Virus record (IMG/VR): IMGVR_UViG_3300036770_008686
Coordinates: 62,001-126,000 of that record
Length of the DNA stretch: 64,000 bases
Reading direction: 5' to 3' (one strand)
Source: a virus
Shown: positions 17,484 to 59,633 of the stretch, in pieces
Numbering within the stretch: position 1 is the stretch's first letter
Layout: the number at the start of each line of letters is the position of its first letter
Made by a program: the position numbers and the translations under genes
Notes under the pieces: generated by a model
What the model saw: only the letters and a program-made list of their open reading frames with translations
Database searches by the model: none
Told to the model about the DNA's origin: nothing

Positions 17484-18572
17484 TTAGTCATCATCGTCAT
17501 CGTCTTCGTCTTCGTCTTCATCTTCATCATCTTCATCATCTTCATCATCTTCATCATCTTCATCATCTTCGTCTTCATCTTCATCATCTTCATCATCTTC
17601 ATAGTCTTCGTCTTCTTCGTCTTCTTCGTCGTCATCGTCATAATCATCTTCATAGTCTTCATCTTCTTCGTCTTCATCGTCATCGTCATCGTCATAATCT
17701 TCATCGTCATAATCATCGTCATCGTCATCATCTTCTTCATCGTCATCATCTTCTTCATCATCGTAAAATACACTTAAATCTTCTTTTGTATTTTTAGATA
17801 AAAAATTGTATAATTTTTCATCTAAATCAAAACTACTAAAAATAGGTCCATTGTCGCAATCTTTGAACTCTCCGTGTGTAAATTGAAAAATTGGTTTTGA
17901 TTGTGAGTCTTGAACTATGTAAATAGGAAGATCGTTATAAGATTCGTGGGCACCGCCTTTAGGGTCGGCTGTGCACCAAGAAGTTCCTTTGCCATATTTA
18001 CATAAAAGTCTATGTCTTGAATTTAGTTTGTCTTTTTCAAAAGGAACAGCCTGAATCATGTACAGGGTATAGTCCTTGTTACTTGCCACAATTTTTAAGA
18101 GGTCTTTATCAGACTCTAATATTTCTCCTTTCTTTTTTAAAGAAATATTTTTTCTATAACTTAGTTTTTCCTCTTTTTTCTTATTTAAGAAAGAATCTAA
18201 AGATTCATATCCAAAAGCAAACCAACCAATCTTGCCTATATGAGACTTGTCAATAGTGTTAGAGCTTAACTTTGATTTTGAATCGTCTATACAATTAGAT
18301 ATAAAGTTTGTTTCAACACCAAAATCAGGATTAATCTTACTACAAATAATAACTCTTGATACAACTCCTAAACAAAAAACAAACCAATTATAACTCTTTA
18401 AATTTTTGCTATCCAATGTAGCAAAAATTAAATTTTCAAAAGAAGATAATTCAGATGAAATTTTATTGCCAGAATATAAAATATCAGTTATTTTTATATT
18501 TAAAATTGATTCGCTAGATTTTAGATCGTGCTTTTTAAAGCACTTCAAATTGTTTTTGAAAGTAAAGTCCAT
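17484..18572 (-). CDS. GKGTxWCTA protein with extreme acidic C-terminal tail
   Basis: 362 aa. Residues 1-270 form a globular part with LLCKYGKGTSWCTADPKGGAHE followed by LPIYIVQDSQSKPIFQFTHGEF, a motif (GKGT.WCTA...) I know from large-phage hypothetical and PcfJ-related proteins. Residues 270-362 are almost only Asp and Glu with occasional Tyr, encoded by GAT/GAA/GAC triplet repeats. The tail could act as a DNA mimic, a chaperone-like tail or a spacer. It is upstream of the MoxR operon. Confidence 0.88.
   Translation of the reverse strand: MDFTFKNNLKCFKKHDLKSSESILNIKITDILYSGNKISSELSSFENLIFATLDSKNLKSYNWFVFCLGVVSRVIICSKINPDFGVETNFISNCIDDSKSKLSSNTIDKSHIGKIGWFAFGYESLDSFLNKKKEEKLSYRKNISLKKKGEILESDKDLLKIVASNKDYTLYMIQAVPFEKDKLNSRHRLLCKYGKGTSWCTADPKGGAHESYNDLPIYIVQDSQSKPIFQFTHGEFKDCDNGPIFSSFDLDEKLYNFLSKNTKEDLSVFYDDEEDDDDEEDDDDDDDYDDEDYDDDDDDEDEEDEDYEDDYDDDDEEDEEDEDYEDDEDDEDEDEDDEDDEDDEDDEDDEDEDEDEDDDDDD
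17487..17763. repeat. Trinucleotide low-complexity tract
   Basis: About 280 bases of (TCA/TCT/TCG/TCC)-type triplets encode the acidic tail of the 18572-17484 gene. A Met-rich frame read on the same strand here is a by-product. Likely unstable in length by slippage. Confidence 0.85.
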
Positions 18573-25172: not shown

Positions 25173-25910
25173 ATGTTTAAATCTTTTGTTCTTAAGAAAA
25201 AAATTAAAAAAATTAAAAATGCAATAAAAAACTTAAGCTTAGAAACAATAAGTGAAAAAGTAGACATCAATATAGTAAAAGATATATGGAAAGACAACAA
25301 AGTAATATATTGGTTAAAATCTAATGGAATAGAAATAGTTACGCCACCTCCATATTCACTTGGAGGAAGTGGAATTGCCTATTTTTTACCAAATAACATG
25401 GTTGTAAAAATAACAGATGATATAGTAGAAGCAAATGTAGCAAAGATGCTTATAAAATCTAAAATAAAACATACAATGATAGATGTTGTTAAAATTAATA
25501 ACTTATATTTAATACTTCAACAAAAGTTAGACTTAAAAAAAACTTCAGAAGATATGAAAACAGCAGCCGATCTAGTTACCGTTATGATAGACGACAACTC
25601 CTTAGAAGAGTTTCCTGATAACAAAGAACTACTAAAAAATATGTGTATAAAAACAATAAAAGAAAACAACTTTCCAATTTCTATTCTAGATAAAATGCTT
25701 TTAATAATTGATACTCTAAAAGAGATAGAAAAAACAACAGGATATTTTCATGACGATGCAGGTCCTACAAACATAGGAACAAAAGATGGCAAAACATATG
25801 TTTTTGACTTAGGTCCAAATAAAACAAAAAGCTACAACCCTATGGAAAGGATTAAAAAAATAAAAACAAAAAGAGAAAAGTTAGGATTAAGCGATCACGA
25901 ATTTGAGTAA
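25173..25910 (+). CDS. Protein-kinase-fold phosphotransferase
   Basis: 245 aa. Kinase landmarks in order: Gly loop SLGGSGIAYF (residues 62-71), catalytic Lys79 in VVKI, Glu86 in DDIVEAN, catalytic loop YFHDDAGPTN (Asp194/195, Asn200), and metal site FDLGPN (Asp212). All key residues are present, so it is probably active. It could phosphorylate a host protein or a small molecule. A TATATAAA box ends six bases before the ATG. Its end overlaps the GT2 gene by 24 bases tail to tail. Confidence 0.82.
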   Translation: MFKSFVLKKKIKKIKNAIKNLSLETISEKVDINIVKDIWKDNKVIYWLKSNGIEIVTPPPYSLGGSGIAYFLPNNMVVKITDDIVEANVAKMLIKSKIKHTMIDVVKINNLYLILQQKLDLKKTSEDMKTAADLVTVMIDDNSLEEFPDNKELLKNMCIKTIKENNFPISILDKMLLIIDTLKEIEKTTGYFHDDAGPTNIGTKDGKTYVFDLGPNKTKSYNPMERIKKIKTKREKLGLSDHEFE

Positions 25911-26873
25911 TTTTTCAAATAAATAATTCAAGTAGTTTTCTACTTTGGAATTCTCTTCTGCACGTATAATAAATTTTATAATCTGCTCTGAGCTAAAGTA
26001 GCTATTAGCAGTAGTATTAAAATCAAAAAAATAAAATAAATTCGATATTTTTTCAAAGTTATTGCTTGGTTTAATATTCAATTTTGTTTTAGGCAAAATA
26101 CTAGATTTTAAAGAGTTTATCTTCTGCTCGGGGCATAAGAATTTTTCAAAATATTTTAAGCATGCACATCTTTCAAGATATCTTATATGAAAACTATTAC
26201 CTAAACTTTTTTTTGACGAATTTTTTTCATGATAATAAACTCTATTTTTTATCATTCCTCCTTTTCCAAGTTCATTGTCACAAATTGTAATACCAACAAT
26301 ATTATCTTCACAACCCCAACCTTCTTTATCGAATGGAGTAAACTCTGGAAAAGGGGATTCTAATAAGACATTCTTTTTGAAAATTCCATATTGGGTTAAT
26401 GCTATTTTGTTTTGACTAATTTTATTTTTTTTTAAACAAAGGTTACGATTATCTTTTGAATATAAAAGGCAAACGTCTTTTAAAGATATCTCTTTTTCAA
26501 GAGTAGTAGAAAAAGAATAATTTTTTGTATAATTTTTATAATCATATCCTAAATATGCGAAATCATTATTATTAGCCATAAATTTATACATACACTCAAT
26601 AGAATTTATTATAGGAACTATATCGGCATCCAACAACAAAACGTAATCATGCAAAGAGTGTCTAACCATATAGTTTCTTGCAAAAGATATACCTGTATTT
26701 GTTTTGCTTAGTGTTTTTTGAATGTCTAGTTTATCCAGATACTCAGTCGAACCATCGTTAGAATTTTGGTCGTAAACAATAATTTCATTTTCAATTTTTA
26801 GTTTTGATAATATCTCTATTGTTTTTTTTAATGTATTTAAACAATTCCAACTCAGTATACATATACTTACCAT
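25887..26873 (-). CDS. Family 2 glycosyltransferase
   Basis: 328 aa. GT-A fold of family GT2: SICILSWNCLNTLKKTIEIL, IVYDQNSNDGSTEYL, NTGISFARNYMV, DXD motif LLLDADIVP. The N-terminal 120 residues are the nucleotide-sugar domain, and the C-terminal half is Lys/Asn-rich. Encoded opposite to the rest of the island, sharing an 18-bp divergent promoter with the sulfotransferase. Confidence 0.92.
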   Translation of the reverse strand: MVSICILSWNCLNTLKKTIEILSKLKIENEIIVYDQNSNDGSTEYLDKLDIQKTLSKTNTGISFARNYMVRHSLHDYVLLLDADIVPIINSIECMYKFMANNNDFAYLGYDYKNYTKNYSFSTTLEKEISLKDVCLLYSKDNRNLCLKKNKISQNKIALTQYGIFKKNVLLESPFPEFTPFDKEGWGCEDNIVGITICDNELGKGGMIKNRVYYHEKNSSKKSLGNSFHIRYLERCACLKYFEKFLCPEQKINSLKSSILPKTKLNIKPSNNFEKISNLFYFFDFNTTANSYFSSEQIIKFIIRAEENSKVENYLNYLFEKLLKFVIA

Positions 26874-26891
26874 TTACGTTATAATATAGTC
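26874..26891. promoter_or_regulatory. 18-bp divergent promoter
   Basis: The whole gap between two divergent ATG codons. TATAAT ends six bases before the sulfotransferase ATG, and on the other strand TATTAT ends seven bases before the GT2 ATG. There is no room for an SD, so both mRNAs would be leaderless if these boxes are used. Confidence 0.5.
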
Positions 26892-27491
26892 ATGATTATT
26901 CATAAAAACAAAATTATTTTTATTCACATACCAAAAACAGCAGGCTTCTCGATAGAAAAATTTCTATATGGAAGAGAACTAGATTCATCTTTTTTTTATG
27001 AAGATATAGTGTATGGCTTAAAAGATGGAAAATACACACAGCACCTAGAATATAGTAGTATCAAAAATTACTACAAAGGCAAAGAAAATATAGAAAAGTA
27101 TTTTAAATTCACATTTGTTAGGAACACATGGGACAGGCTGTTAAGTGCTTATTCCTATTTAAATCCAAATCCAAATAAAGAAAGTTTTTGTAATTATTTA
27201 AAGAAAAAATGTAAAAATTTATATAGAATGAGCGAATGTGATCACTATAATAATCAAATAAGATATATTTTTAATAATAATCAAAAATTTTTAGATTTTA
27301 TAGGATTATTTGAAAACATACAAGAAGATTTTAAAAATCTATGTAATAAAATTAATATTGAGTATAAACCATTACCAATAATTAACAGCTCTAAAAGAAA
27401 AGATTATAAAGAATATTATGACGAAGAAACGATAAATATTGTTAAGGAAACTTACAAAGAAGAAATAGAATACTTTGATTTTAAATTTTAA
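26892..27491 (+). CDS. Sulfotransferase
   Basis: 199 aa. The PAPS-binding 5'-phosphosulfate loop is FIHIPKTAGFSIE and the 3'-phosphate site is FVRNTWDRLLSAYSYL, both hallmarks of the carbohydrate/tyrosine sulfotransferase superfamily. Probably transfers sulfate from PAPS to a glycan made by the neighbouring glycosyltransferases. First gene of a dense plus-strand operon. Confidence 0.93.
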   Translation: MIIHKNKIIFIHIPKTAGFSIEKFLYGRELDSSFFYEDIVYGLKDGKYTQHLEYSSIKNYYKGKENIEKYFKFTFVRNTWDRLLSAYSYLNPNPNKESFCNYLKKKCKNLYRMSECDHYNNQIRYIFNNNQKFLDFIGLFENIQEDFKNLCNKINIEYKPLPIINSSKRKDYKEYYDEETINIVKETYKEEIEYFDFKF

Positions 27492-27519
27492 AAAAGAAAA
27501 ACAAGGAGGTTTTAAAAAA

Positions 27520-28260
27520 ATGAAAATACTAGCTTACTATACTCATGGGTTTTCAAATGAATTTTTACCCATACTAAGACTATCAATAAGAAGCTTGAGA
27601 AAGTACAACAAGATAGACACCTTAGTATTATGTGATGAGCAATTTGAAAAAGATTGTAAGGCAATGGGAGGAATAGAAACTTTAAGCTTAAAAAATTCAA
27701 AAAAACCCGAGGATGCTTCAATGCACAAACTATCTGTTTTTTCTTTTGAAGAAATAAAAAATTACGATAAAGTAATTTTTATAGATAGCGACATAATAAT
27801 AGATGTTAAATTAAATAAAATAATAGAAAAATGTTTAGATGAACAAAAACTATACGCTTGCTCAGAATCAAATGATATCTCTTTACACAGAAATTTATAT
27901 TGGTCGCTAGAAAACTACACAGAAAAAGAAATGGAATTTTTTAAAAAAAATAAAATTTATGTATTTAATGCAGGGTGTTTTGTATTTACTCCAAATCAAG
28001 AATTTAAAACACACTTTCAAGAAATAAAAAATATTATAAAAGAACATAAAGGAAGCTACTTTTATGAACAATCATTTATGAATTTTTATTTTAATAAAAA
28101 AAATCTAGTAGACTACTCTGTTTTAAATGAAAAAAACTATATATTGCATGCGAATGGAGATAAAAAATATAGAAATTCAATAGTGCACTTTTGTGGAAAT
28201 CCTGGGGTTGCGGCAAACAAATTAGAAAGAATGAAAAAATATTTATCTACAATAAAATGA
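27520..28260 (+). CDS. Glycosyltransferase, GT8/glycogenin-like
   Basis: 246 aa from MKILAYYTHGFSNEF; perfect SD AAGGAGG eight bases upstream. DXD motif is VIFIDSDIIID, and a later YEQSFMNFYF and HFCGNPG carry typical GT8 C-terminal metal/substrate residues. Transfers a sugar from a nucleotide donor to an unknown acceptor. Confidence 0.85.
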   Translation: MKILAYYTHGFSNEFLPILRLSIRSLRKYNKIDTLVLCDEQFEKDCKAMGGIETLSLKNSKKPEDASMHKLSVFSFEEIKNYDKVIFIDSDIIIDVKLNKIIEKCLDEQKLYACSESNDISLHRNLYWSLENYTEKEMEFFKKNKIYVFNAGCFVFTPNQEFKTHFQEIKNIIKEHKGSYFYEQSFMNFYFNKKNLVDYSVLNEKNYILHANGDKKYRNSIVHFCGNPGVAANKLERMKKYLSTIK

Positions 28261-28889
28261 AAACAAAAATAATAAGTTTTTACGCAGACATAGAGAATAG
28301 AAATTACTATAGCCTTTGCGGGCAAAAGTTAAAAGAGTCTCTTGAAAAATTCAACATAGAACACGAGATAGAAGAAATAAACTCATCTAACGACTATATG
28401 TTGAATTGCTTAAAAAAGCCTGGCTTTATACTCAAAAAAATACTTGATTGTAAAAAACCTTTAATATGGGTTGACGTGGATACAGATTTTAGATCTCCAT
28501 TTGAAGATTTTGATAAAAATGATTGTGATATAGGGTTTTGTAGTGATACAGGGGATGTAGAGGGTGTAAAGGCCTCTCCAATATATTTTAATTATAACGA
28601 GAACGCTTTGCTTTTTTTAAATAAATGGAAAGAAGAATGCGAAAAAGCCGTAATAGAAAAAAAAACAGAATTAGATCACGATGTAATAAAATACATACTA
28701 TTGCCAGAATTTAATAACAAAATAAAAATAAAAATATTATCAGAAAACTTTATAGATTTTTATAACGGAAAACACATAAAGAGTAGATTATCAAAAAATT
28801 TTGTAACAAAAAACTTAGCACACAAAAAAATAAAAGAAATAAATAGATACAGAAAAGGCTTGAGTAAAAAAGAATATAAAAGCTTATAA
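28257..28889 (+). CDS. Glycosyltransferase with DXD motif
   Basis: 210 aa from MKTKIISFYADIEN (ATGA overlap with the GT8 stop). LIWVDVDTDFRSPF provides a DXD; ELDHDVIKYILLPEF resembles the acceptor-side segment of nucleotide-diphospho-sugar transferases. No signal or membrane segment. Confidence 0.8.
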   Translation: MKTKIISFYADIENRNYYSLCGQKLKESLEKFNIEHEIEEINSSNDYMLNCLKKPGFILKKILDCKKPLIWVDVDTDFRSPFEDFDKNDCDIGFCSDTGDVEGVKASPIYFNYNENALLFLNKWKEECEKAVIEKKTELDHDVIKYILLPEFNNKIKIKILSENFIDFYNGKHIKSRLSKNFVTKNLAHKKIKEINRYRKGLSKKEYKSL

Positions 28890-28899
28890 AGAGGAAAAA

Positions 28900-29595
28900 T
28901 TGTTTTACGAAAAAGAAAAACAAAAAGAAATATTAACCAAAAAACTACTCAATAAGGAGTTTTTTGCTTTAAATAGATTTGGAGAAGGGGAAGTAAGAGT
29001 AATAATGAGCGGAGGAACAGGAGTATACTTGAGATGTATAGCAAAGTCATCTATAAGGGAATGGGAATACAATCCAAAAGAAGACAAGTACTTATACGAA
29101 CAATTATGTGAAAGCTTTTATTATAAAGAAGAAAACTACATAAAAGCATCGGTTGGTGGTGGCAAAAAAAATCAAGAAGAGTTTGTAAAAAAAAGCCTGC
29201 CAAACGAAGAGTTATTTACCACGACATACTTTTATGGAGATGACTATTACAATGATTTTTTCGAAACATACCTTCCTTTAATGCAGAAATATGAGTCCAT
29301 AAACTTTGTGTGTTCTAAACTGGCAAATTATAAAAATGTTAATATAAATTTTAAAAATGTCTACAATAGTTTTGAAATATCGAACGCATGGAAACAAAAA
29401 GAAGAAACTAAAAAAGTAATAGAAGAAATAAGCAAAACAAAAAATTCTGTATATATTTTTTCTGTAGGTTTTAATTCCAAAATAATGATTAAAAAGCTTT
29501 TCCAAGAAAACAAAAACAATGTGTATTATGACTTTGGTGCAAATTTAGACATAAAGCTATATGGAAGAAAAACAAGAGGGAAACACATGCCATGA
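28900..29595 (+). CDS. GT-D fold (DUF1792-like) glycosyltransferase
   Basis: 231 aa, TTG start at 28900 with GAGG upstream. FALNRFGEGEVRVI near the N-terminus and VYIFSVGFNSKIMIKKLFQEN...YDFGANLD near the C-terminus match the DUF1792/GT-D pattern (R-x-G-D/E-G-E; G...K.L......D.G). It overlaps the next gene by ATGA. Confidence 0.78.
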   Translation: MFYEKEKQKEILTKKLLNKEFFALNRFGEGEVRVIMSGGTGVYLRCIAKSSIREWEYNPKEDKYLYEQLCESFYYKEENYIKASVGGGKKNQEEFVKKSLPNEELFTTTYFYGDDYYNDFFETYLPLMQKYESINFVCSKLANYKNVNINFKNVYNSFEISNAWKQKEETKKVIEEISKTKNSVYIFSVGFNSKIMIKKLFQENKNNVYYDFGANLDIKLYGRKTRGKHMP

Positions 29596-30215
29596 ATATT
29601 TTTGTAGAGTATTTTAACCATAAAAATGAAAGAAGAAAAAGTGAAATAGATAAAACTCTTATTACAAATATTAATTTTAATTATATAAATAAATTTTATG
29701 TATTCTCTAATAAAGAAGATTCAGAAGAAGTTAAAAAATTAAATTTTAATAAAAAAATAACAAACGTCATAACAGAAGAAAGATGTACCTTTCAATATAT
29801 TTTTGACTTTGCAAACTCGGTTTGTGGAGAAGAAGAAATTAACATAACAATGAATAACGATATAATATTAAGCAAATCATTTAGCAATGTTAAAATTCCC
29901 AAAGAATGCTTTTTTGCAATAAGTAGATGGGAAAGAAACAACAACAATCATCCTTTTTGCTACAGAACTTGTGATTCCCAAGATTTGTGGATTTGGAGAG
30001 GAAAAAACAAAATGAAAGAATGTAACTTTTATTTCGGAATACTTGGATGCGACAACAGAATAGTACACATAGCAGAAGAATGCGGATATATAACAAGAAA
30101 CCCAGCATACACATATAGATGTCACCACAACCACGAATCCAAAGTAAGAATAGGTTCTAATGATGCAAGCCTAAGATTAAAAGGCCCATATAAAAAGGTT
30201 TGTCCATGTCATTAA
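29592..30215 (+). CDS. Glycan-processing protein with SQDLWIW/CDNRI motif
   Basis: 207 aa. NITMNNDIIL followed by FFAISRWE...CDSQDLWIW...FYFGILGCDNRIVHIAEECGYITRNPAYTYRCHHNHES resembles a domain repeated in glycosyltransferase clusters of viruses and bacteria (SQDvW.., GcDn.., NPs...HH.H). Metal-binding His cluster at the end. A glycosyltransferase role is inferred from motif and context. Confidence 0.8.
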   Translation: MNIFVEYFNHKNERRKSEIDKTLITNINFNYINKFYVFSNKEDSEEVKKLNFNKKITNVITEERCTFQYIFDFANSVCGEEEINITMNNDIILSKSFSNVKIPKECFFAISRWERNNNNHPFCYRTCDSQDLWIWRGKNKMKECNFYFGILGCDNRIVHIAEECGYITRNPAYTYRCHHNHESKVRIGSNDASLRLKGPYKKVCPCH

Positions 30216-30877
30216 AAGTATACACATTTTACACAGACAGTCACAAAAAGCTACTAGAAGAATACTTTATACCCACCTTTAATGAAACAAATAGCGATTT
30301 AAGTTTAGAAGTAAAAAAATTTGAACAAAAATGCAGTTCTGGAAACTATATGTCAAGTGGTTGGTATCAAATAATGATGAACAAGGTGGATTATATTCTA
30401 TCTAGCATAGATGAATCATGGGGAAAAGTTTTTATACACGCAGATTGTGACATTGTTTTTTTTGGATCTATAAAAGAAGATATCTTACAACAAATGGAAG
30501 AAAAAGACATAGCAGCTCAAAATGATGGAAATGAAATTTGTTGTGGATTTTTTGCCTGTAAGGCAAACGAAAAAACAAAAAGTTTATTCGAGCAAGTAAA
30601 AAAAGAGATGAATGAAAAATTCAATGATCAACAAGCAACAAATAAATTAGTCAAAAAATATGTATCGTATAAATATTTAAACGAAAGATACTATAGCATA
30701 TACAGAAATACAAATAAAAAAGTCTGGGAAAAGGGTGTGAATATAAATGAAAAAGAAATTCCAAAAGAAATGCTTGTATATCATGCAAACTGGACCGTTG
30801 GTGTTGAGAACAAAATAGAACTTATGAATAAGGTTAAAAAAATTATCTATGATAATAGAAAAAAACACAATTTATAG
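30206..30877 (+). CDS. Nucleotide-diphospho-sugar transferase
   Basis: 223 aa from MSLKVYTFYTD. FIHADCDIVFFG is a DXD-type site and EICCGFFACKANEKT plus NDQQATN match the PF03407-like family (DXD, then DQ). The start overlaps the preceding gene by ten bases. Member of the same operon. Confidence 0.82.
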   Translation: MSLKVYTFYTDSHKKLLEEYFIPTFNETNSDLSLEVKKFEQKCSSGNYMSSGWYQIMMNKVDYILSSIDESWGKVFIHADCDIVFFGSIKEDILQQMEEKDIAAQNDGNEICCGFFACKANEKTKSLFEQVKKEMNEKFNDQQATNKLVKKYVSYKYLNERYYSIYRNTNKKVWEKGVNINEKEIPKEMLVYHANWTVGVENKIELMNKVKKIIYDNRKKHNL

Positions 30878-31784
30878 CAAGATAAGCGATTTGAGATCCT
30901 ACATATGTAGCGACATTTGTGAAAATCCAAAAAAAATATATGAAGAAATAAAAAAATTAGAAAATAATTTAATGGAAGGAGAGGTAAAAGTTCCCGAGGA
31001 GTTTAAACCCAAGATTAAAGTAACATATCCTCCGGAAAATTACTCTATATTTGAAGATTGGGTATCGGACAACTATACATCTAATTTTAGTAGAAAATAC
31101 CTACCTATTCACTGGACGAGCTATCATGTTAATAATAAATATGGAACAATAAAATCAGTAGTAAAAAGACTGCAGGATTATGTCGATAGCTTGCCCAGAA
31201 ATGAAAAATATTGGACAATTTGCCAATATGACGACGGAGTTTTAATAGACTTCAAAGACTTAGATATTTTAGTTTTTAGTATGAGTAAAAAGCTAGGGGT
31301 GGAGATTCCTTTGGTCTGTATGCCACATTCCTACAATCAAGAGAATAAAAAAAACATATTTGCTTCATTTATAGGAAAAGAAACACATCCAATAAGAAAG
31401 CATGTGCTAAATATTAAAAATTCAAATTATTATATATCAAGAGAAAATCACAATATACAAAAATATTGTGAAATAATGAGCAGATCAATATTTGGTTTGT
31501 GCCCCAGAGGTTATGGATTAAATAGTTTTAGAACATCAGAGTGTATGCAATATGAAACAATACCAGTTTACATAAGCGATGAATTTATAAGTGTTTTTGA
31601 TGCTGATTTTGAAGATTATGGAATAAAAATAAATCAAAAAGAAGCAGACAAAATTGAGCAAATACTAAATAATGTTACAGAAGAAGAAATAGAAAAAAAA
31701 AGAAAAAAAATAAAAGAATATTACAGTAAATATTATACTTATGAAGGCATGATTAAAAATATAGAAAAAAAATTATATGAATAA
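30849..31784 (+). CDS. Exostosin-like (GT47) glycosyltransferase
   Basis: 311 aa. SRSIFGLCPRGYGLNSFRTSECMQYETIPVYISDE is the exostosin/GT47 signature (F.LCPRG.G..S.R..E......PV). N-terminal part contains MPHSYNQENKKNIFASFIG. GT47 enzymes build heparan-sulfate-like and plant glycans, and such genes are uncommon in phages. Overlaps the preceding gene by 29 bases and the duplicated start region of the next. Confidence 0.88.
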   Translation: MIIEKNTIYSKISDLRSYICSDICENPKKIYEEIKKLENNLMEGEVKVPEEFKPKIKVTYPPENYSIFEDWVSDNYTSNFSRKYLPIHWTSYHVNNKYGTIKSVVKRLQDYVDSLPRNEKYWTICQYDDGVLIDFKDLDILVFSMSKKLGVEIPLVCMPHSYNQENKKNIFASFIGKETHPIRKHVLNIKNSNYYISRENHNIQKYCEIMSRSIFGLCPRGYGLNSFRTSECMQYETIPVYISDEFISVFDADFEDYGIKINQKEADKIEQILNNVTEEEIEKKRKKIKEYYSKYYTYEGMIKNIEKKLYE

Positions 31785-31869
31785 AATAGAATTAAACACA
31801 GAAAGAATGCTGGGGTATGGTTTATATGAATAAAATAGAATTAAACACAGAAAGAATGCTAGGGTATGG
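31773..31869 (+). repeat. Tandem duplication of a gene-start region
   Basis: Two 48-bp copies (31773-31820 and 31822-31869) with one mismatch. Each covers TTATATGAATAA, the ATG and the first 13 codons of the methyltransferase. The upstream copy encodes an 18-aa peptide whose stop again overlaps the true start as ATGAATAA. Confidence 0.92.
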
Positions 31870-32332
31870 CTCCTATAACAATGTAAACTACTTACATGGA
31901 TTAGATGATTTATGTAAAAAATATATTAAAAAAACAGATACAATATTAGAATTGGGAACAAACGATGGCATTAGTTCTGCTCTTTTTTCTTTTTATGCTA
32001 AACAAGTTTATACAATAGATTTAAAAGAACCAAGCGAAAGACTAAAAAAAGTTTTAAATGAACATAAAAATATAAAATTTATAAATGGATCTTTTTACGA
32101 AGAAATAAATAAATTAAAAATGAATTTTGAATTTATTTATATAGATGGAAATCATGACTACGACTCTGTCTTATCTGATATTAAATTTTGTATCCCGTTT
32201 TTAAAAAACAATATAATAGGTGGCCATGATTTTTTCGACAACAATTGCGACGTAGCAAAAGCCGTAAAATCATTTTTTTTTAACAAAAAAGTAAATTTAT
32301 TTAAAGATAGTTCTTGGGTGATAGAAATTTAA
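31826..32332 (+). CDS. Class I SAM-dependent methyltransferase
   Basis: 168 aa. Motif I ILELGTNDGISSALF, acidic motif II VYTIDLKEP, motif IV FEFIYIDGNHDYDSVLSDI, a Methyltransf_24-like pattern. The ATG at 31826 is the second copy of a duplicated start region. In a glycan cluster it probably O-methylates a sugar. Confidence 0.88.
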   Translation: MNKIELNTERMLGYGSYNNVNYLHGLDDLCKKYIKKTDTILELGTNDGISSALFSFYAKQVYTIDLKEPSERLKKVLNEHKNIKFINGSFYEEINKLKMNFEFIYIDGNHDYDSVLSDIKFCIPFLKNNIIGGHDFFDNNCDVAKAVKSFFFNKKVNLFKDSSWVIEI

Positions 32333-32347
32333 AAATTGAGGATAAAA

Positions 32348-32956
32348 ATGAAAACAGAGCTATGCAACTTAATGGACAAATTCGGCAGCGACAAAGCTTC
32401 ATACCATAATTATACATTATTTTATTATGATTTATTGAAAGAAAAAAAATATCAAGAAGTAAAAATATTTGAAGTAGGGTTGGGGACAAACAACACTAGC
32501 ATACCATCTAACATGGGGGCAAATGGAAGACCCGGGGCCTCGTTGAGAGCGTGGAAAGAATTTTTTCCAAATGCAAAAATTTACGGAGCAGACATAGACA
32601 AAAATATATTGTTTCACGAAGAAAGAATTAAAACTTTTTTTTGCGACCAAACAGATGAAGTAAGTATAAAAAAAATGTGGGAAAACGATGAATTAAAAAA
32701 TGAAAGTTTTGATCTAATAATAGATGATGGTTTGCATGAAATTAATGCAAACATAAATTTTTTAAAAAATTCATTTAAAAAATTAAAAAATGACTCCGCT
32801 TTTATAATAGAAGATATAATAGCAGATAAAATAGATAGATATAAAGAAAAAATTCAAAATTTATCAAAAACAATGAACTTTGAGTTTGAAATTAAAAACT
32901 TTGATCATACAAACAAATATGATAATTGTATTTGTTTTATTAAAAAATTAAAATAA
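32348..32956 (+). CDS. Class I SAM-dependent methyltransferase
   Basis: 202 aa from MKTELCNLMDKFGSDKASY; SD GAGGA. IFEVGLGTNN (SAM loop), IYGADIDKNIL, FDLIIDDGLHEINANI. The MDKFGSDK...H.Y..LY N-terminus matches CmcI-like or glycan methyltransferases. Likely acts with its neighbours on the same glycan. Confidence 0.88.
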   Translation: MKTELCNLMDKFGSDKASYHNYTLFYYDLLKEKKYQEVKIFEVGLGTNNTSIPSNMGANGRPGASLRAWKEFFPNAKIYGADIDKNILFHEERIKTFFCDQTDEVSIKKMWENDELKNESFDLIIDDGLHEINANINFLKNSFKKLKNDSAFIIEDIIADKIDRYKEKIQNLSKTMNFEFEIKNFDHTNKYDNCICFIKKLK

Positions 32957-32957
32957 A

Positions 32958-33581
32958 ATGATAATACAAAAAATTGATAAAAATAAAAAAATAAGCCCAA
33001 GATATAAAACAATATTAGAAATATTAAAAAACATTCCAGACAAATCAAGTGGAATAGAGGTAGGAGTTTTACATGCAGATCTATCTATTTTTTTACTTGA
33101 AAATTGCTTAAAAATTAAAAAGCTATATTTAATAGATCCTTGGAAAAAATACAACAAAGAAGAATACGTTGACTCTGTTAATGAGAAATCGCAAAAAGAA
33201 TATGACGAAATATATTTGAGTGTAAAGCAAAGAATAAAAAGCCATGAAGAAAGAGTTGAATTGTTAAGAGGCGAGTCAAAGGAATTTGAAAATAAATTTT
33301 CAGAAAATAGTTTAGATTTTATATACTTGGATGCGAATCACATGTACGAAAACGTTTTTAATGATATTTCAACATGGTATCCAAAAATTAAAAAAGGTGG
33401 AATTTTATTTGGAAATGACTTTATGGAAGATGGCTACAAAATTTGGCAAAAAGATGTGTATGGAAAGCCAATTTGTTATGGAGAGTATGGAGTAAGAAGT
33501 GCAGTAAGAGTTTATTGCAAACAAAACCAAATCAATTACAGAAGCCCAGGCGAAAATCAATGGTATATCATAAAAAGATGA
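32958..33581 (+). CDS. Class I SAM-dependent methyltransferase
   Basis: 207 aa. GIEVGVLHADLSIFLLENC (SAM loop), LYLIDPWKKY, LDFIYLDANHMYENVFNDI, FGNDFMEDGY. Methyltransf_24-like. One base after the preceding stop. Its stop touches the minus-strand gene at 33582 with no space for a terminator. Confidence 0.88.
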   Translation: MIIQKIDKNKKISPRYKTILEILKNIPDKSSGIEVGVLHADLSIFLLENCLKIKKLYLIDPWKKYNKEEYVDSVNEKSQKEYDEIYLSVKQRIKSHEERVELLRGESKEFENKFSENSLDFIYLDANHMYENVFNDISTWYPKIKKGGILFGNDFMEDGYKIWQKDVYGKPICYGEYGVRSAVRVYCKQNQINYRSPGENQWYIIKR

Positions 33582-48201: not shown

Positions 48202-48927
48202 TTAAAAATCGGAAACTTCATCATCATAATCTTCTTCATCATCTTCGTCTTCGTCTTCGTCTTCGTCTTCGTCTTCTTCGTAATCATCTTCCTCATCATC
48301 TAAAAACTCATCATTTTCGTCATCTTCATCTTCATCTTCATCTTCATCTTCATCGTCTTCTAAGTCCTCATCCTCATCCTCGTCCTCATCCTCGTCCTCA
48401 TCTTCATCTTCATCTTCATCGTCTAAGTCGTATTCTTCATCAATTGATTTTGCTGCTAATGGAGTAGCTTCCTCTTTTGTCTCGAGTTTACTTTTGGTGC
48501 TCTTGCCCAAAACCTTTGAAAGTGTAGCAACGCTCAAAGTATTGTCGCCCTTAAAAGTAATTTTAGTAGTACCAAAACAAATTCCCTCTCTATTGAGATG
48601 CTCCACAGCAGCATCTATTCCTACAGAATCAACAAGGGATTCAATTGCAGACACAGCTTGAGGCATGCTAATCCAAATAGGTTTTGAATCGGTTTTAGGT
48701 CTACCTTTGGATATTTGAAATCCTATATCCTTCAATATTGATGTCAAGGTTGGTATGCTAATTTTGTCAATTTTAGCCACTTTTTCACCAACTTTAAGAC
48801 CCTCAGTCTGGAGTTTTTCGGAAATTAAACCAACCTTTTTAAGGTCGGCGGCCATTTCCAGCAGACTCTTTCTAGCATCGGAGTTCTCTTTGGCCAATAG
48901 CTTCAACATGTGAGTTTTACGACCCAT
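48202..48927 (-). CDS. Protein with acidic C-terminal tail (241 aa)
   Basis: 241 aa. Residues 1-160 are helical: MGRKTHMLKLLAKENSDARKSLLEMAADL, with a possible wing (SIPTLTSILKDIGFQISKGRP). From about residue 165 to the end is a D/E tract (DEDEDED...), encoded by GAT/GAA repeats, resembling but independent of the tail at 17484-18572. Preceded by a CGGTACGT element and a sigma70-like promoter. Confidence 0.85.
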   Translation of the reverse strand: MGRKTHMLKLLAKENSDARKSLLEMAADLKKVGLISEKLQTEGLKVGEKVAKIDKISIPTLTSILKDIGFQISKGRPKTDSKPIWISMPQAVSAIESLVDSVGIDAAVEHLNREGICFGTTKITFKGDNTLSVATLSKVLGKSTKSKLETKEEATPLAAKSIDEEYDLDDEDEDEDEDEDEDEDEDEDLEDDEDEDEDEDEDDENDEFLDDEEDDYEEDEDEDEDEDEDDEEDYDDEVSDF

Positions 48928-49965: not shown

Positions 49966-50187
49966 ATGGCAGACTATTCATTAAAATTAACACCATCGAT
50001 TAGAAATATGGACTCAGAAGGAAGTCTTGATACAAGCATATTGAATGGAGAAAGCATTCAAAGAACTGTAAATCTACTAGAAGTTGTTGACGATTCAGGA
50101 AATAAAAAAGTAATAGGAGTTGTTAAAGACGGACAACCATTCGATGATGTTGTAGAAGTAGTCGAAGATCAAGATAGCGATAATTAA
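49966..50187 (+). CDS. KLTP/SIQR family protein (copy on plus strand)
   Basis: 73 aa from MADYSLKLTPSIRNMDSEGSLDTSILNGESIQRTVNL. Closely related to 55493-55723, and the SIQR...DG..F.D frame recurs in 54939-55493. SD AAAGGAA. Preceded by TATATATA about 40 bases upstream. Probably a small virion or carbohydrate-associated component. Confidence 0.82.
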   Translation: MADYSLKLTPSIRNMDSEGSLDTSILNGESIQRTVNLLEVVDDSGNKKVIGVVKDGQPFDDVVEVVEDQDSDN

Positions 50188-53851: not shown

Positions 53852-53883
53852 AATATGTTATAGAAAAAAATAAAAAATAGTAT

Positions 53884-53954
53884 AAAAAAGAATCGGCGGG
53901 CGGACCTCACTATAGTAGATCCAAGATTCCTTGAGAAGGGTGGATGGCCGATCC
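53884..53954 (-). ncRNA. Structured RNA element ending in T-run
   Basis: On the minus strand a closing stem ATCGGC (53952-53947) / GCCGAT (53897-53892) encloses two smaller possible stems, including GGATCT with AGGTCC. It is followed by TTCTTTTTTATA. Could be a leader attenuator or a small RNA made from the CGGTACGT element at 54015. No known family was recognised. Confidence 0.4.
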
Positions 53955-54014
53955 TTTTAAAAATAGAGTTAATCTAGTAAAACTTTGTATTTTTGGACAC
54001 ACAACTAGCGTCTC

Positions 54015-54033: not shown

Positions 54034-54942
54034 TTATTTAATTTTAAAATCGGGTAAGAGTATTAAATTATTTTTTTTTCCATCAATAAGCAATTCTCTT
54101 GAAATTGGATTTTCAAAAACAGGTTCATTGAAAATTGAATTATTAGGTAAGCACTTAAAATAAGGTTGTTGGCCTCGTTCAATTGCGTTTTTGGAAAAAG
54201 ATTTAAGAAACTCCACAACAGTCAATTGTTCTCCGGACTGCTCAGCTTCTTTCTTTGTTTTGTTCCAAGTTGAAGCAAAAATCCCTCTAACAGTTAGTTT
54301 TTCGGCACTGCTAGACGCCAATATAAGAGCATCTTCAAAAGCATTTTGACTTAAACAATAATCTATTTCATCATTTTTTAAATCAAAAAAATTTCTAAAA
54401 AAAGTATTTTTATTAATTTCAGGCATTCTTACTTCTAAATTATAAACTCTTAATGGCTCTCCTTTTTTATCAAACCCCTCCTCTATGCCCCCAGCAGCAT
54501 GACAAGTATCTATTAAGAGTATTAACCTTTTAACTTTTCCAGCCTTAGAAATAGCTTCAACAGCTTTGCTGAATTTAAAATTACCATTCCTAGCGGTCAT
54601 GCTAAAAGACTTTCCAGATCCTCCACCGTGACTATTTACATATATTAAAAGCGTGCCATTTTCACCAACCAAAGATGTGTAATCTCTAATTTTGCTATAA
54701 ATTTCACTAGAAGTTACATTGTGAAATTTATTACAAACAAATCCTAGCTTTTTATCAACAAAAGACTCTTCCATTAATTGAAGGTTTCTTGTTCTGCCCT
54801 GCTCGTCTGTCATTGTGAAAAGAAGAGCATGATTGCTCGACTTAATATCATAAGGAAAACCGGTAAGGTCAACATCATCAGAAAAAACAAGAGAAGAAAT
54901 TAAAAAAAAAGTGATTGTAAATAAAAATTTGTGATTCTTCAT
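54034..54942 (-). CDS. Secreted caspase-like (C14) cysteine protease
   Basis: 302 aa. Signal peptide (FLFTITFFLISSLVFS, residues 5-21). Caspase fold: NHALLFTM strand, then TLLIYVNSHGGG with catalytic His105 and LILLIDTCHAAGG with catalytic Cys147, the p20 signature. C-terminal part longer than a minimal p20 domain. Such orthocaspase/metacaspase genes are common in Planctomycetes but rare in phages. ATGA overlap with the upstream paralogous gene. Confidence 0.85.
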   Translation of the reverse strand: MKNHKFLFTITFFLISSLVFSDDVDLTGFPYDIKSSNHALLFTMTDEQGRTRNLQLMEESFVDKKLGFVCNKFHNVTSSEIYSKIRDYTSLVGENGTLLIYVNSHGGGSGKSFSMTARNGNFKFSKAVEAISKAGKVKRLILLIDTCHAAGGIEEGFDKKGEPLRVYNLEVRMPEINKNTFFRNFFDLKNDEIDYCLSQNAFEDALILASSSAEKLTVRGIFASTWNKTKKEAEQSGEQLTVVEFLKSFSKNAIERGQQPYFKCLPNNSIFNEPVFENPISRELLIDGKKNNLILLPDFKIK

Positions 54943-55493
54943 GTTTTGTAATTAACCTTTACAGAAGTAATAACTTGTACTTCGACAATATAATCATTTT
55001 CATTTTTAAATTCAATCTTATTTAAGTTTAATTCTCCTTGAGAAAATATTTGAGTTTCATTCGCTTTCAAAGTAAAAATAGCAGTATCCGAAGAATTAAG
55101 TCTAACTTTTATGTTGCCATTTCCATTGGAAATTTGAACAAAAGTAGCAAAACCATTTTCTTGTGATTCTATATCCAAAACATTATCTTCAAAAGAAGAG
55201 TCTTGATTTAAAGAAAAAAGATAAGCTTTGGGGGCATTGTTGCTATCAGTATAGTCGCTCCAAACGGAGCCATCATCTTCTATAATTTCTAAAAATGCAA
55301 CATCTAGGCTGCATTGAGGAAAGGCATACCTTTTCCAGTAATTCGAATCTTCAAAAATCTCACCATCCTTCAATTGTCTATAAATACGGTTAGGCCCTGC
55401 GACATAGATACTTCTTTGAATACTATTCTCTGAAGGATTTATGTCCAGGAGCCCTTGAGTACCGTTATTTAATCTAACCCTAAATTTGCTCAT
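54939..55493 (-). CDS. SIQR-family beta-rich protein (184 aa)
   Basis: 184 aa. The N-terminus FRVRLNNGTQGLLDINPSENSIQRSIYV...LKDGEIFED is a diverged version of the 49966 and 55493-55723 proteins. The C-terminal 100 residues form a beta sandwich (FATFVQISNGNGNIKVRL...IFTLKANETQIFSQGELN). Possibly a virion protein. Sits directly between the caspase and its shorter paralogue. Confidence 0.8.
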   Translation of the reverse strand: MSKFRVRLNNGTQGLLDINPSENSIQRSIYVAGPNRIYRQLKDGEIFEDSNYWKRYAFPQCSLDVAFLEIIEDDGSVWSDYTDSNNAPKAYLFSLNQDSSFEDNVLDIESQENGFATFVQISNGNGNIKVRLNSSDTAIFTLKANETQIFSQGELNLNKIEFKNENDYIVEVQVITSVKVNYKT

Positions 55494-55723
55494 CAGTTTT
55501 CTATTATAAATTTGTGTCCGCTATTTTCTAAGTCAGCCAAAGTTTGCATAACATCATCAAAAGTAGCTCCGTCTCTAGCTTGAACTATTTTTCTATCTAC
55601 TCCGTTGTAGACATCTAGATAAACAGTTCTTTGGATAGAAACTCCATTAACTACCGAAGTATCTAAAGATCCTTCTGTTCCCAAATTCCTCAAATCAGGT
55701 GTCAATTTTACTGTGTAACTCAT
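55493..55723 (-). CDS. KLTP/SIQR family protein
   Basis: 76 aa: MSYTVKLTPDLRNLGTEGSLDTSVVNGVSIQRTVYL, DGATFDDV. Over half of the positions match 49966-50187. SD AAGGAGGT. It is first in the three-gene unit that ends with the caspase. Confidence 0.82.
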   Translation of the reverse strand: MSYTVKLTPDLRNLGTEGSLDTSVVNGVSIQRTVYLDVYNGVDRKIVQARDGATFDDVMQTLADLENSGHKFIIEN

Positions 55724-57416: not shown

Positions 57417-59633
57417 TTATTGACAAGGCACTATACTAACACAATTTGTTTTATTGCCGTCACCATTTAACTTAGTTAAATCTAATTCAACTTTAACATC
57501 AATAGGAGAGCCTTTATAAACAAGCTCAATTTCCGGATTTTCGGGCATGAGTAATTGAATTACAGATGGAATATATCCTTGAAGTTGTATAACAGATGGT
57601 ACTCCAACAACTTGTATTTCTTTTGGAACGCCCGAAGCATTAAGTAGTATTTCTCTAGGAAAATCTTCTTGAACTTTGAGTGGAATAAACTCAGGTATAT
57701 CATAATTTTTGAGTTGAATAACCTCTGGTATTTTTGATTCAACAAATATTGAACTTGGAATAAAAGAATCATTAACAATTTTAATCTCTGATGGTAAGCT
57801 AAAATCTTTTGTAATCTTTATTTCTGATATACCTTCTATTTTATCTATTTTTATAGAAGAAGGTATATTATCAACATTGATTTTCAATTTAGGAAAAACG
57901 GGTGTATCCACTTTAATAACAGAAGGAATTCCCAAACTAGCTACATCGACTTCAACATAGTCCTGATTGTATAGACTTGCCTGAGAAGAATTTGACCTAG
58001 CACCAGATGGAGAACTACCGCACTCAACCGTTACTATACAGGATAGCTGCGGTGGGCCGCCATTAGCTTGCCAATCTACGGTTATTACAGAAGTAATATC
58101 TCCCTCTATTCTTATGATTGAAGGAATTGCAGGTGTAAGCTGTATTACAGGGGGGATGGACCCAGTCAAATTAACATTAACATCAACAGGTCCTATAGTA
58201 GGAGTATTCCATTGTATTGGACTTATATTTATAAAACTAGGTATATTGCTATTAATAAAACTTGGTATAACAATACTAGGTATGTCTATCCTAGATGGTA
58301 TATTGATGAGCGGAGAGTCAACTTTTATGTAAGTAGGAAGATTAAATGGTTGATCTATTTTAACATAAGTTGGTATGTTGACCGGGTCAATACTAATTCT
58401 AGTAGGAACATTAATAAATGTAGGAATTCCAGTTAAATCAGGAGCTAAAATTTCTATCCTACTGGGTATATTAATTGGTGATATGCTAATAAAAGTCGGA
58501 ATAGGAGGATTAGGTTGTAATATTTGAATAACAGAAGGCAGTTCTATTCTACTAGGTATATTAATAGGAGTAATTGTTATAAACGTAGGTATGCTAACAG
58601 CACTTGGTGATATTGTTATTCTAGTAGGTATGGTGATCGGACTAATAGATATTAAAGTTGGTATATTTAAAGGAGGAACTATTTCTATTATTGAAGGTAT
58701 AGAAACATTTCCTATTGGGCTTGCATCTAAGCAAGGAAATACTATAGGAGGTATATTATACCTATTTTCCAATTGAACAAATGGAGTTATCACAATAGGA
58801 GGTATAACAGGAGGAGGAGGAAGAGGTATTTCTATTACACCATCTCCTGTATCTTGTCTCGTTGGTTGTAAAGAATTGTCTCTAGCAGTAGGCGTGACAA
58901 CAATTGAGCAAAAAGAATTCGATACGGTCAGGACTGGATCTATATTTGCATTTACAGAATAAGTATGAGTTCCTTCTAAGAGAAAATTGTTTGTAACACC
59001 ATCTCCGAAATCCAAAACAAAATTAGTATCTAAAGATGAATTTTCAATACTTATACTGTATTCTGCGACTATGCCGGTTGCATTATTTTGAGAAACAATA
59101 TTGAAAATAAAACTAACATCAGGACAGGAATGATCGTCAAATATAATAGGAGTTTCGGCTAAGTTTCTTATTTTCCAATCTAATGTTTTTTGATCTTCGG
59201 TAAAATTACTGCCTATAAATTTTTCAGTTTTTATAATAGCATCCACAAGTTGATTGTGGTGCTCGGCAACAACAAAGCCTCTTACTTTAGTGCCACGTGT
59301 ATTGAACTTGGTTTTAGATCCACCCAAATTTCTAATACAGCCTTTAAACTTAGTTACAAGATACACACCATCAGATAGTTCAGCATCTGGGGTTAAATCT
59401 AGGGTGAAGTAAGACCTTTCCACAGAATTATAATAAAAAAGTTCTCCATCTATACTAGCGTAGCCGCTATCCGACCAGACTTCATGATTAAATAAAGGTT
59501 TTACACTTATCTCTTCAGACCAAGCAGGACAATCTTCAGAAAGTATTGATTCTGAAGTGTTGTAGACCAAAAACAAAGTTTCATCATTATCATATCTTTT
59601 AGGATATAGAGGTGTCGGTGGTGGCTTGCTCAT
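57417..59633 (-). CDS. Large fibre-like protein with PKD domain and IPSxI repeats
   Basis: 738 aa. N-terminal domain with VAEHHNQLVDAIIKTEKFIGS, shared with the two genes upstream. A PKD-like beta domain follows (FVLDFGDGVTNNFLLEGTHTYSV). From about residue 270 to 690, a run of short beta units of form [I]P[S/T]xI.I..... (IPTFISISPI, IPSRIEL...) is interrupted by a Cys-containing segment. Such repeats suggest a rigid beta fibre. SD AAAGGAA. Confidence 0.83.
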   Translation of the reverse strand: MSKPPPTPLYPKRYDNDETLFLVYNTSESILSEDCPAWSEEISVKPLFNHEVWSDSGYASIDGELFYYNSVERSYFTLDLTPDAELSDGVYLVTKFKGCIRNLGGSKTKFNTRGTKVRGFVVAEHHNQLVDAIIKTEKFIGSNFTEDQKTLDWKIRNLAETPIIFDDHSCPDVSFIFNIVSQNNATGIVAEYSISIENSSLDTNFVLDFGDGVTNNFLLEGTHTYSVNANIDPVLTVSNSFCSIVVTPTARDNSLQPTRQDTGDGVIEIPLPPPPVIPPIVITPFVQLENRYNIPPIVFPCLDASPIGNVSIPSIIEIVPPLNIPTLISISPITIPTRITISPSAVSIPTFITITPINIPSRIELPSVIQILQPNPPIPTFISISPINIPSRIEILAPDLTGIPTFINVPTRISIDPVNIPTYVKIDQPFNLPTYIKVDSPLINIPSRIDIPSIVIPSFINSNIPSFINISPIQWNTPTIGPVDVNVNLTGSIPPVIQLTPAIPSIIRIEGDITSVITVDWQANGGPPQLSCIVTVECGSSPSGARSNSSQASLYNQDYVEVDVASLGIPSVIKVDTPVFPKLKINVDNIPSSIKIDKIEGISEIKITKDFSLPSEIKIVNDSFIPSSIFVESKIPEVIQLKNYDIPEFIPLKVQEDFPREILLNASGVPKEIQVVGVPSVIQLQGYIPSVIQLLMPENPEIELVYKGSPIDVKVELDLTKLNGDGNKTNCVSIVPCQ

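Follow-up and report, generated by a model that had tools for sequence, protein, structure and literature searches.

Caspase-type proteases of bacteria have been linked with cell death and defence. The closest described systems are the bacterial caspase homologues or orthocaspases such as GSU0716 (PDB 3bij), some of which possess a single N-terminal hydrophobic helix (PMC3501461). The open-access papers searched contained one link to phages, where phage-related operons of Clostridium that include metacaspases are mentioned (PMC3501461); the fuller literature may hold more. The choice of the P1 residue in clan CD is set by helix alpha-1 and loops L4 and L5 (PMC4357240). MALT1 (Asp365, Asp462 and Glu500) and TbMCA2 (Asp95 and Asp211) have acidic S1 residues and are both Arg/Lys-specific, and caspase-7 has Arg, Gln and Arg at the S1 positions (PMC4357240). 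Among exported phage proteins, Spackle of T4 reaches the periplasm and stops superinfection (PMC7677548), and phage T5 gives a further precedent for an exported exclusion protein (PMC9586334).

The DNA analysed here, referred to as the window, comprises 64,000 nucleotides and spans positions 62001-126000 in a virus record whose total length is 135,789 bp. The record has a GC content of 31% and contains homologues of the phage genes rIIA, baseplate wedge, clamp-loader and RNA ligase. Three open reading frames of 76, 184 and 302 aa follow each other on the minus strand (Table 1). As the original prediction had stated, they overlap: by 1 nt between the first two and by 4 nt (ATGA) between the second and third, so that the 76-aa, 184-aa and 302-aa genes are probably translationally coupled. 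Most of the window is read in the direction opposite to a plus-strand gene block at 25173-33581, which includes sugar-transferase-like proteins. Two further proteins, at 17484-18572 and 48202-48927, end in very long C-terminal tails of Asp and Glu only.

The 302-aa protein contains the motifs SHGGG (His105) and DTCHAAG (Cys147), that is, the His/Cys pair that had been noticed before together with a signal peptide. It matched Pfam family PF00656 (Peptidase_C14) with 26.5 bits (E 6.2e-6, cut-off 21.4), and this profile matched 14 of the 17 aligned family members, the best with an E value of 3.7e-12. The legumain family C13 was considered and rejected; its score of 18.9 bits was under the cut-off of 22.8 and lower than that of C14, and a PDB sequence match to GPI transamidase was weak (E 0.011). 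An AlphaFold2 model built with 17 sequences reached a pLDDT of 73.7 and a pTM of 0.76, with values mostly between 70 and 97 in the core and weak parts at the N-terminus, residues 149-171, residues 214-217 and the C-terminus. VIA-align gave a Z score of 16.7 and an rmsd of 3.0 over 186 residues against procaspase-3 (4jqz), and among the 50 matches listed every chain was a caspase and none a member of C13. Structure prediction had been proposed as a check of the caspase assignment, and the fold was present. The top matches in Foldseek were GSU0716, MALT1, caspase-1 and a metacaspase; the global TM-scores were modest (0.4-0.5), as expected from the poorly modelled linker. In a viral structure library the matches were giant-virus caspases and metacaspases, the best being caspases of Clandestinovirus and Heterosigma akashiwo virus. 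These are likewise virus-encoded, but they belong to the eukaryotic virus world and show 10-14% identity, so that the fold is the only link. By the fold of the model, the His/Cys dyad and the profile match, the 302-aa protein is a member of the caspase superfamily (clan CD, C14-like).

Table 1. Features of the caspase locus and of the related small genes in the window
Feature	Position	Strand	Basis
Caspase-fold peptidase (clan CD, C14-like), 302 aa, with predicted N-terminal export signal	54034..54942	-	Pfam C14, AlphaFold2 model, VIA, relatives
Signal-peptide-like N-terminus, residues 1-21, MKNHKFLFTITFFLISSLVFS	54880..54942	-	Sequence and hydropathy
His105 codon, predicted catalytic, in NSHGGG	54628..54630	-	Invariant in alignments of 17 and 15 members
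Cys147 codon, predicted catalytic, in DTCHAAG	54502..54504	-	Invariant in alignments of 17 and 15 members
Asp145, predicted S1-pocket acid, loop L4 (D-x-C)	54508..54510	-	Invariant; position of MALT1 Asp462 and TbMCA2 Asp211 (PMC4357240)
Glu47, predicted S1-pocket acid, start of alpha-1	54802..54804	-	Invariant; alpha-1 of the model begins at residue 48
Glu214, possible S1-pocket acid, loop L5	54301..54303	-	Glu/Asp in 11 of 15 non-redundant members; loop of low confidence
Linker from Cys strand to beta-5, residues 149-171, low confidence	54430..54498	-	pLDDT <50; candidate autocleavage region
184-aa protein, N-terminal SIQR-type domain	54939..55493	-	Relatives in L001/L002, L003, L034/L035
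76-aa SIQR-family protein	55493..55723	-	Family present in 7 of the 12 phage records covered
73-aa paralogue of the 76-aa protein	49966..50187	+	48% identity

No relatives emerged when viral and genome contigs were scanned with a single sequence or phages were searched by tblastn. The family was opened solely by a three-sequence profile, consisting of the window protein and two plasmid-borne bacterial caspases, which led to seven loci. A scan with a phage-only profile then gave 21 loci with 39-49% identity in large viral contigs of up to 458,813 bp, and one further member was found later on a 381-kb contig (L128). L031-L033 represent one sequence, and L034 and L035 are likewise identical to each other. 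Full-length relatives with a conserved dyad in other viral contigs exclude a chance resemblance. In an alignment of 17 sequences His105, Cys147, Asp145, Glu47 and about 50 other positions were invariant. The order His then Cys and the glycine following the histidine (Gly106) were likewise kept, and the loss of the cysteine in relatives, which had been named as a point against the assignment, was not seen in the family alignments. The dN/dS ratios between pairs of close relatives were 0.02-0.09, with some dS values near saturation, indicating that the gene is kept by selection on the protein.

The phage proteins have the C14 profile, the fold, the His/Cys dyad and the D-x-C-H motif in common with the bacterial homologues. 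They nevertheless formed a cluster separate from the two plasmid-borne bacterial caspases, with 21-24% identity, and have invariant motifs of their own (LFTMT, HN, NSHGGG and QxP). Bacterial and phage reference collections held no clear family member. In the genome contigs, which cover 84,980 species, the phage profile found one partial match of 27%; 398 genomes from the phylum of this weak match yielded no member in a scan run without a positive control. There was no match in 50,697 phage records with three family members as queries, and none in PHROGs v4 for the window caspase, one other member reaching an E value of 0.082. From these sequence comparisons the family looks like a phage-specific branch, a term that holds for these searches, as a pattern scan may miss diverged members. 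The sources searched apparently contain no description of it as a phage family; the caspase superfamily itself is known.

A single large T4-like group takes in the carriers that have a gp23-type capsid gene (PF07068) or a related TerL, with an identity of about 50% or above; these genes were not visible in every caspase-carrying contig, many contigs being fragments. Among contigs of at least 200 kb with a related terminase, G003, G004, G008 and G036 carry the caspase, and it was not detected in four others (G029, G050, G051 and LR756511.1). As a PF00656 scan of whole records missed even the caspase of the window, these absences rest on a repeat with alignment A3. The gene is accessory, having been gained and lost among related phages. 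The family tree did not resolve the deep branching of the phage copies.

Residues 1-21 of the window protein are signal-peptide-like, as judged by eye and from the hydropathy, and this part of the earlier reading held as well. The N-terminus is hydrophobic in all 17 aligned members and ends in signal-peptidase-like sites, except that L021 has a lipobox (LILGC) instead. The occurrence of differing export signals within one family suggests that export itself has been kept, and the members are predicted to be exported. The hydrophobic N-terminus could instead be a membrane anchor. In a Gram-negative host, which is assumed here, the enzyme's place of work would be the periplasm or the outer membrane. 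The carriers are large uncultured (jumbo) phages with a conserved caspase family of their own that is predicted to be exported.

Glu47 and Asp145 are present in all 15 non-redundant members, and 11 of them have an acid, Glu or Asp, at position 214; the S1 residues were matched through the alignment and their position, without atomic superposition. With these predicted S1 acids, located on alpha-1 and L4 and in many members on L5 as well, the phage family resembles the metacaspase TbMCA2 and the paracaspase MALT1. Compared with this group, the phage protein has no extra C-terminal Ig domain, and the sequence identity is about 10%. The acidic Glu47, Asp145 and, usually, Glu214 predict cutting after Arg or Lys. 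Asp specificity of the animal type (C14A) was rejected, since Asp145 stands two residues before the cysteine in all members, where Gln would be expected. The acid at position 214 is missing in 4 of the 15 members, and the cleavage specificity may vary within the family. A subgroup (L024, L025, L028/L036 and L034/L035) has Asp, Asn or Ala in place of Glu214 and an S1 loop with STR(T) where others have S-R-G; its substrate choice may differ. Residue 165 of the linker is basic in 11 of 15 members by column count, and autocleavage in this linker is a guess.

No neighbour was common to all of 22 caspase loci when the surrounding open reading frames were clustered. The 184-aa family adjoins the caspase only in the window, L034 and L035. 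Elsewhere the neighbours are an MscL-like channel (L016 and L022), a patatin-like phospholipase (L023), a secreted thioredoxin (L026), a DNA ligase-like gene with rIIA, or an FkbM methyltransferase. As these contexts are several and unrelated, adjacency says little and the neighbours are poor candidates for substrates.

Some genes of these regions deserve mention in their own right. The MscL-like mechanosensitive channel (L016:5427-5897 (-), Pfam 3.8e-18; L022:8640-9098 (-)) has a C-terminal zinc-ribbon-like tail in the phages and is itself of interest. A protein of about 210 aa with a HELxHA-type motif and without a Pfam match (L016:6910-7560 (-), L029:6888-7571 (+), L031:6928-7572 (+)) adjoins the caspase in two phage sublineages, in differing orientations. 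Of 16 caspase-carrying records, 7 contained it (one a weak match, and two of the seven not adjacent), against none of the 7 large relatives in which no caspase was detected (Fisher p 0.057); it is possibly a partner metalloprotease. Large repetitive proteins lie beside the baseplate genes at a conserved place (window 57417-59633, L001:2512-4983 and L003:6359-8383), and the repeat unit differs from phage to phage, being of the IPS[FV]I type or, in LR756511.1, CISFCxPPSFD; the repetitive protein of the window had no Pfam or PHROG match. A G+C-rich imperfect hairpin lies 3' of the caspase gene (53880-53960), folding not clearly better than shuffled sequences (z -1.39), and L034 has a CCGCCG hairpin immediately 5' of the caspase start. 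Scans for sigma-70 promoters and terminators gave chance levels.

Fold and family were established computationally; activity, specificity and targets are what we infer. The reading to which we give nearly even weight is that the protein is a catalytically competent, exported endopeptidase of caspase fold, belonging to a phage-specific family and cutting extracytoplasmic proteins after Arg or Lys. It would be exported via Sec and mature in the periplasm, perhaps being activated when the loop joining the Cys strand to beta-5 is cleaved. The targets would most likely be outside the cytoplasm of the infected cell, for example receptors at the surface, host factors in the periplasm or the tail proteins that incoming phages bring, and the outcome would be superinfection exclusion or an envelope adjusted for phage growth (host takeover). 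No neighbour of the caspase points to a target. Exclusion or envelope takeover is most likely among the roles considered and is our first choice, ahead of counter-defence, lysis and action outside the cell. The narrower proposal, that jumbo phages exclude rivals through an exported family of basic-P1 caspases which cuts envelope or incoming-phage proteins, is possible but doubtful. T4 Spackle, a small exported protein that acts in the periplasm (PMC7677548), is an analogy of working only; it is not a protease and its fold is unrelated.

The exported caspase might instead counter envelope defence or cell death of the host, for example by cutting a periplasmic sensor or the substrate of a host caspase. 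Its accessory and patchy distribution in related phages would suit this role, as would the link of the bacterial homologues to defence and cell death. However, there was no PADLOC match and no anti-defence gene was found beside the caspase, and export would place it away from the cytoplasm, the site of most known defence effectors. We regard counter-defence as unlikely. An aid to lysis or release, in which envelope-anchoring proteins would be cut late in infection, appears still less probable. Export, the envelope-related neighbours in L016, L022, L023 and L026 and the coupling of the window gene to a gene within a virion-gene block are in its favour; but these neighbours are not kept from phage to phage, neither an endolysin nor a holin or spanin was recognised next to the caspase, and the T4-type late promoter motif TATAAATA occurred 14 times in the window against 12 expected by chance, with no exact match upstream of the inspected caspase genes. 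It is very unlikely that the enzyme, released at lysis or carried outside, degrades competing virions or surface proteins of neighbouring cells. Such an action is feasible, a secreted bacterial protease having been reported to lower phage titres (PMC13175485), but release is an assumption and the phage's own virions would have to be spared.

According to the original prediction, the neighbouring proteins were candidate substrates and virion proteins might be processed. Its statement on their relationship was borne out: the N-terminal part of the 184-aa protein matched the small SIQR family in hhalign (probability 94%, E 1.2e-7), so that this part and the 76-aa and 73-aa proteins are one family, which also forms the end of frames of 560-720 aa. 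The proposed cleavage fared badly. Its support is that the genes are adjacent and coupled in the window, that the 184-aa homologue and the caspase follow in the same order in L034/L035, and that the conserved Arg of SIQR would suit a basic-P1 enzyme. However, the small SIQR genes are often far from the caspase (29,935 versus 97,608 in G015), and most caspase loci lack the 184-aa gene. Relatives of the latter occupy the same gene block in three other phage lineages (L001/L002, L003 and L034/L035), and in L001-L003, where no caspase was detected, the gene is present; its products in L001 and L003 have kept the QR motif. In L001/L002 and LR756511.1 a glycosyltransferase-like gene adjoins it. The neighbours also have no export signal, whereas the caspase has one, so that they would not share a compartment, and the processing of virion proteins in the cytoplasm is hard to reconcile with an exported enzyme. 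Cleavage of the SIQR proteins or other virion proteins is therefore extremely improbable. A gene copy that is catalytically dead or in decay, or whose product uses the caspase scaffold for binding, would agree with the long branch of the window caspase in the family tree, but is scarcely credible with the dyad, Asp145 and Glu47 intact, the frame open and the family under strong purifying selection.

Bacterial caspase-like proteins have been discussed mainly as cell-death and defence enzymes of the host. The phage family turns this question round and raises the question of what phages use caspases for, and where. Its constant dyad, acidic S1 residues and export signal make the phage caspase directly testable. 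If the narrower proposal of rival exclusion by an exported protease is true, viruses would be using caspase-type proteolysis against bacteria, in place of its role in defending the host.
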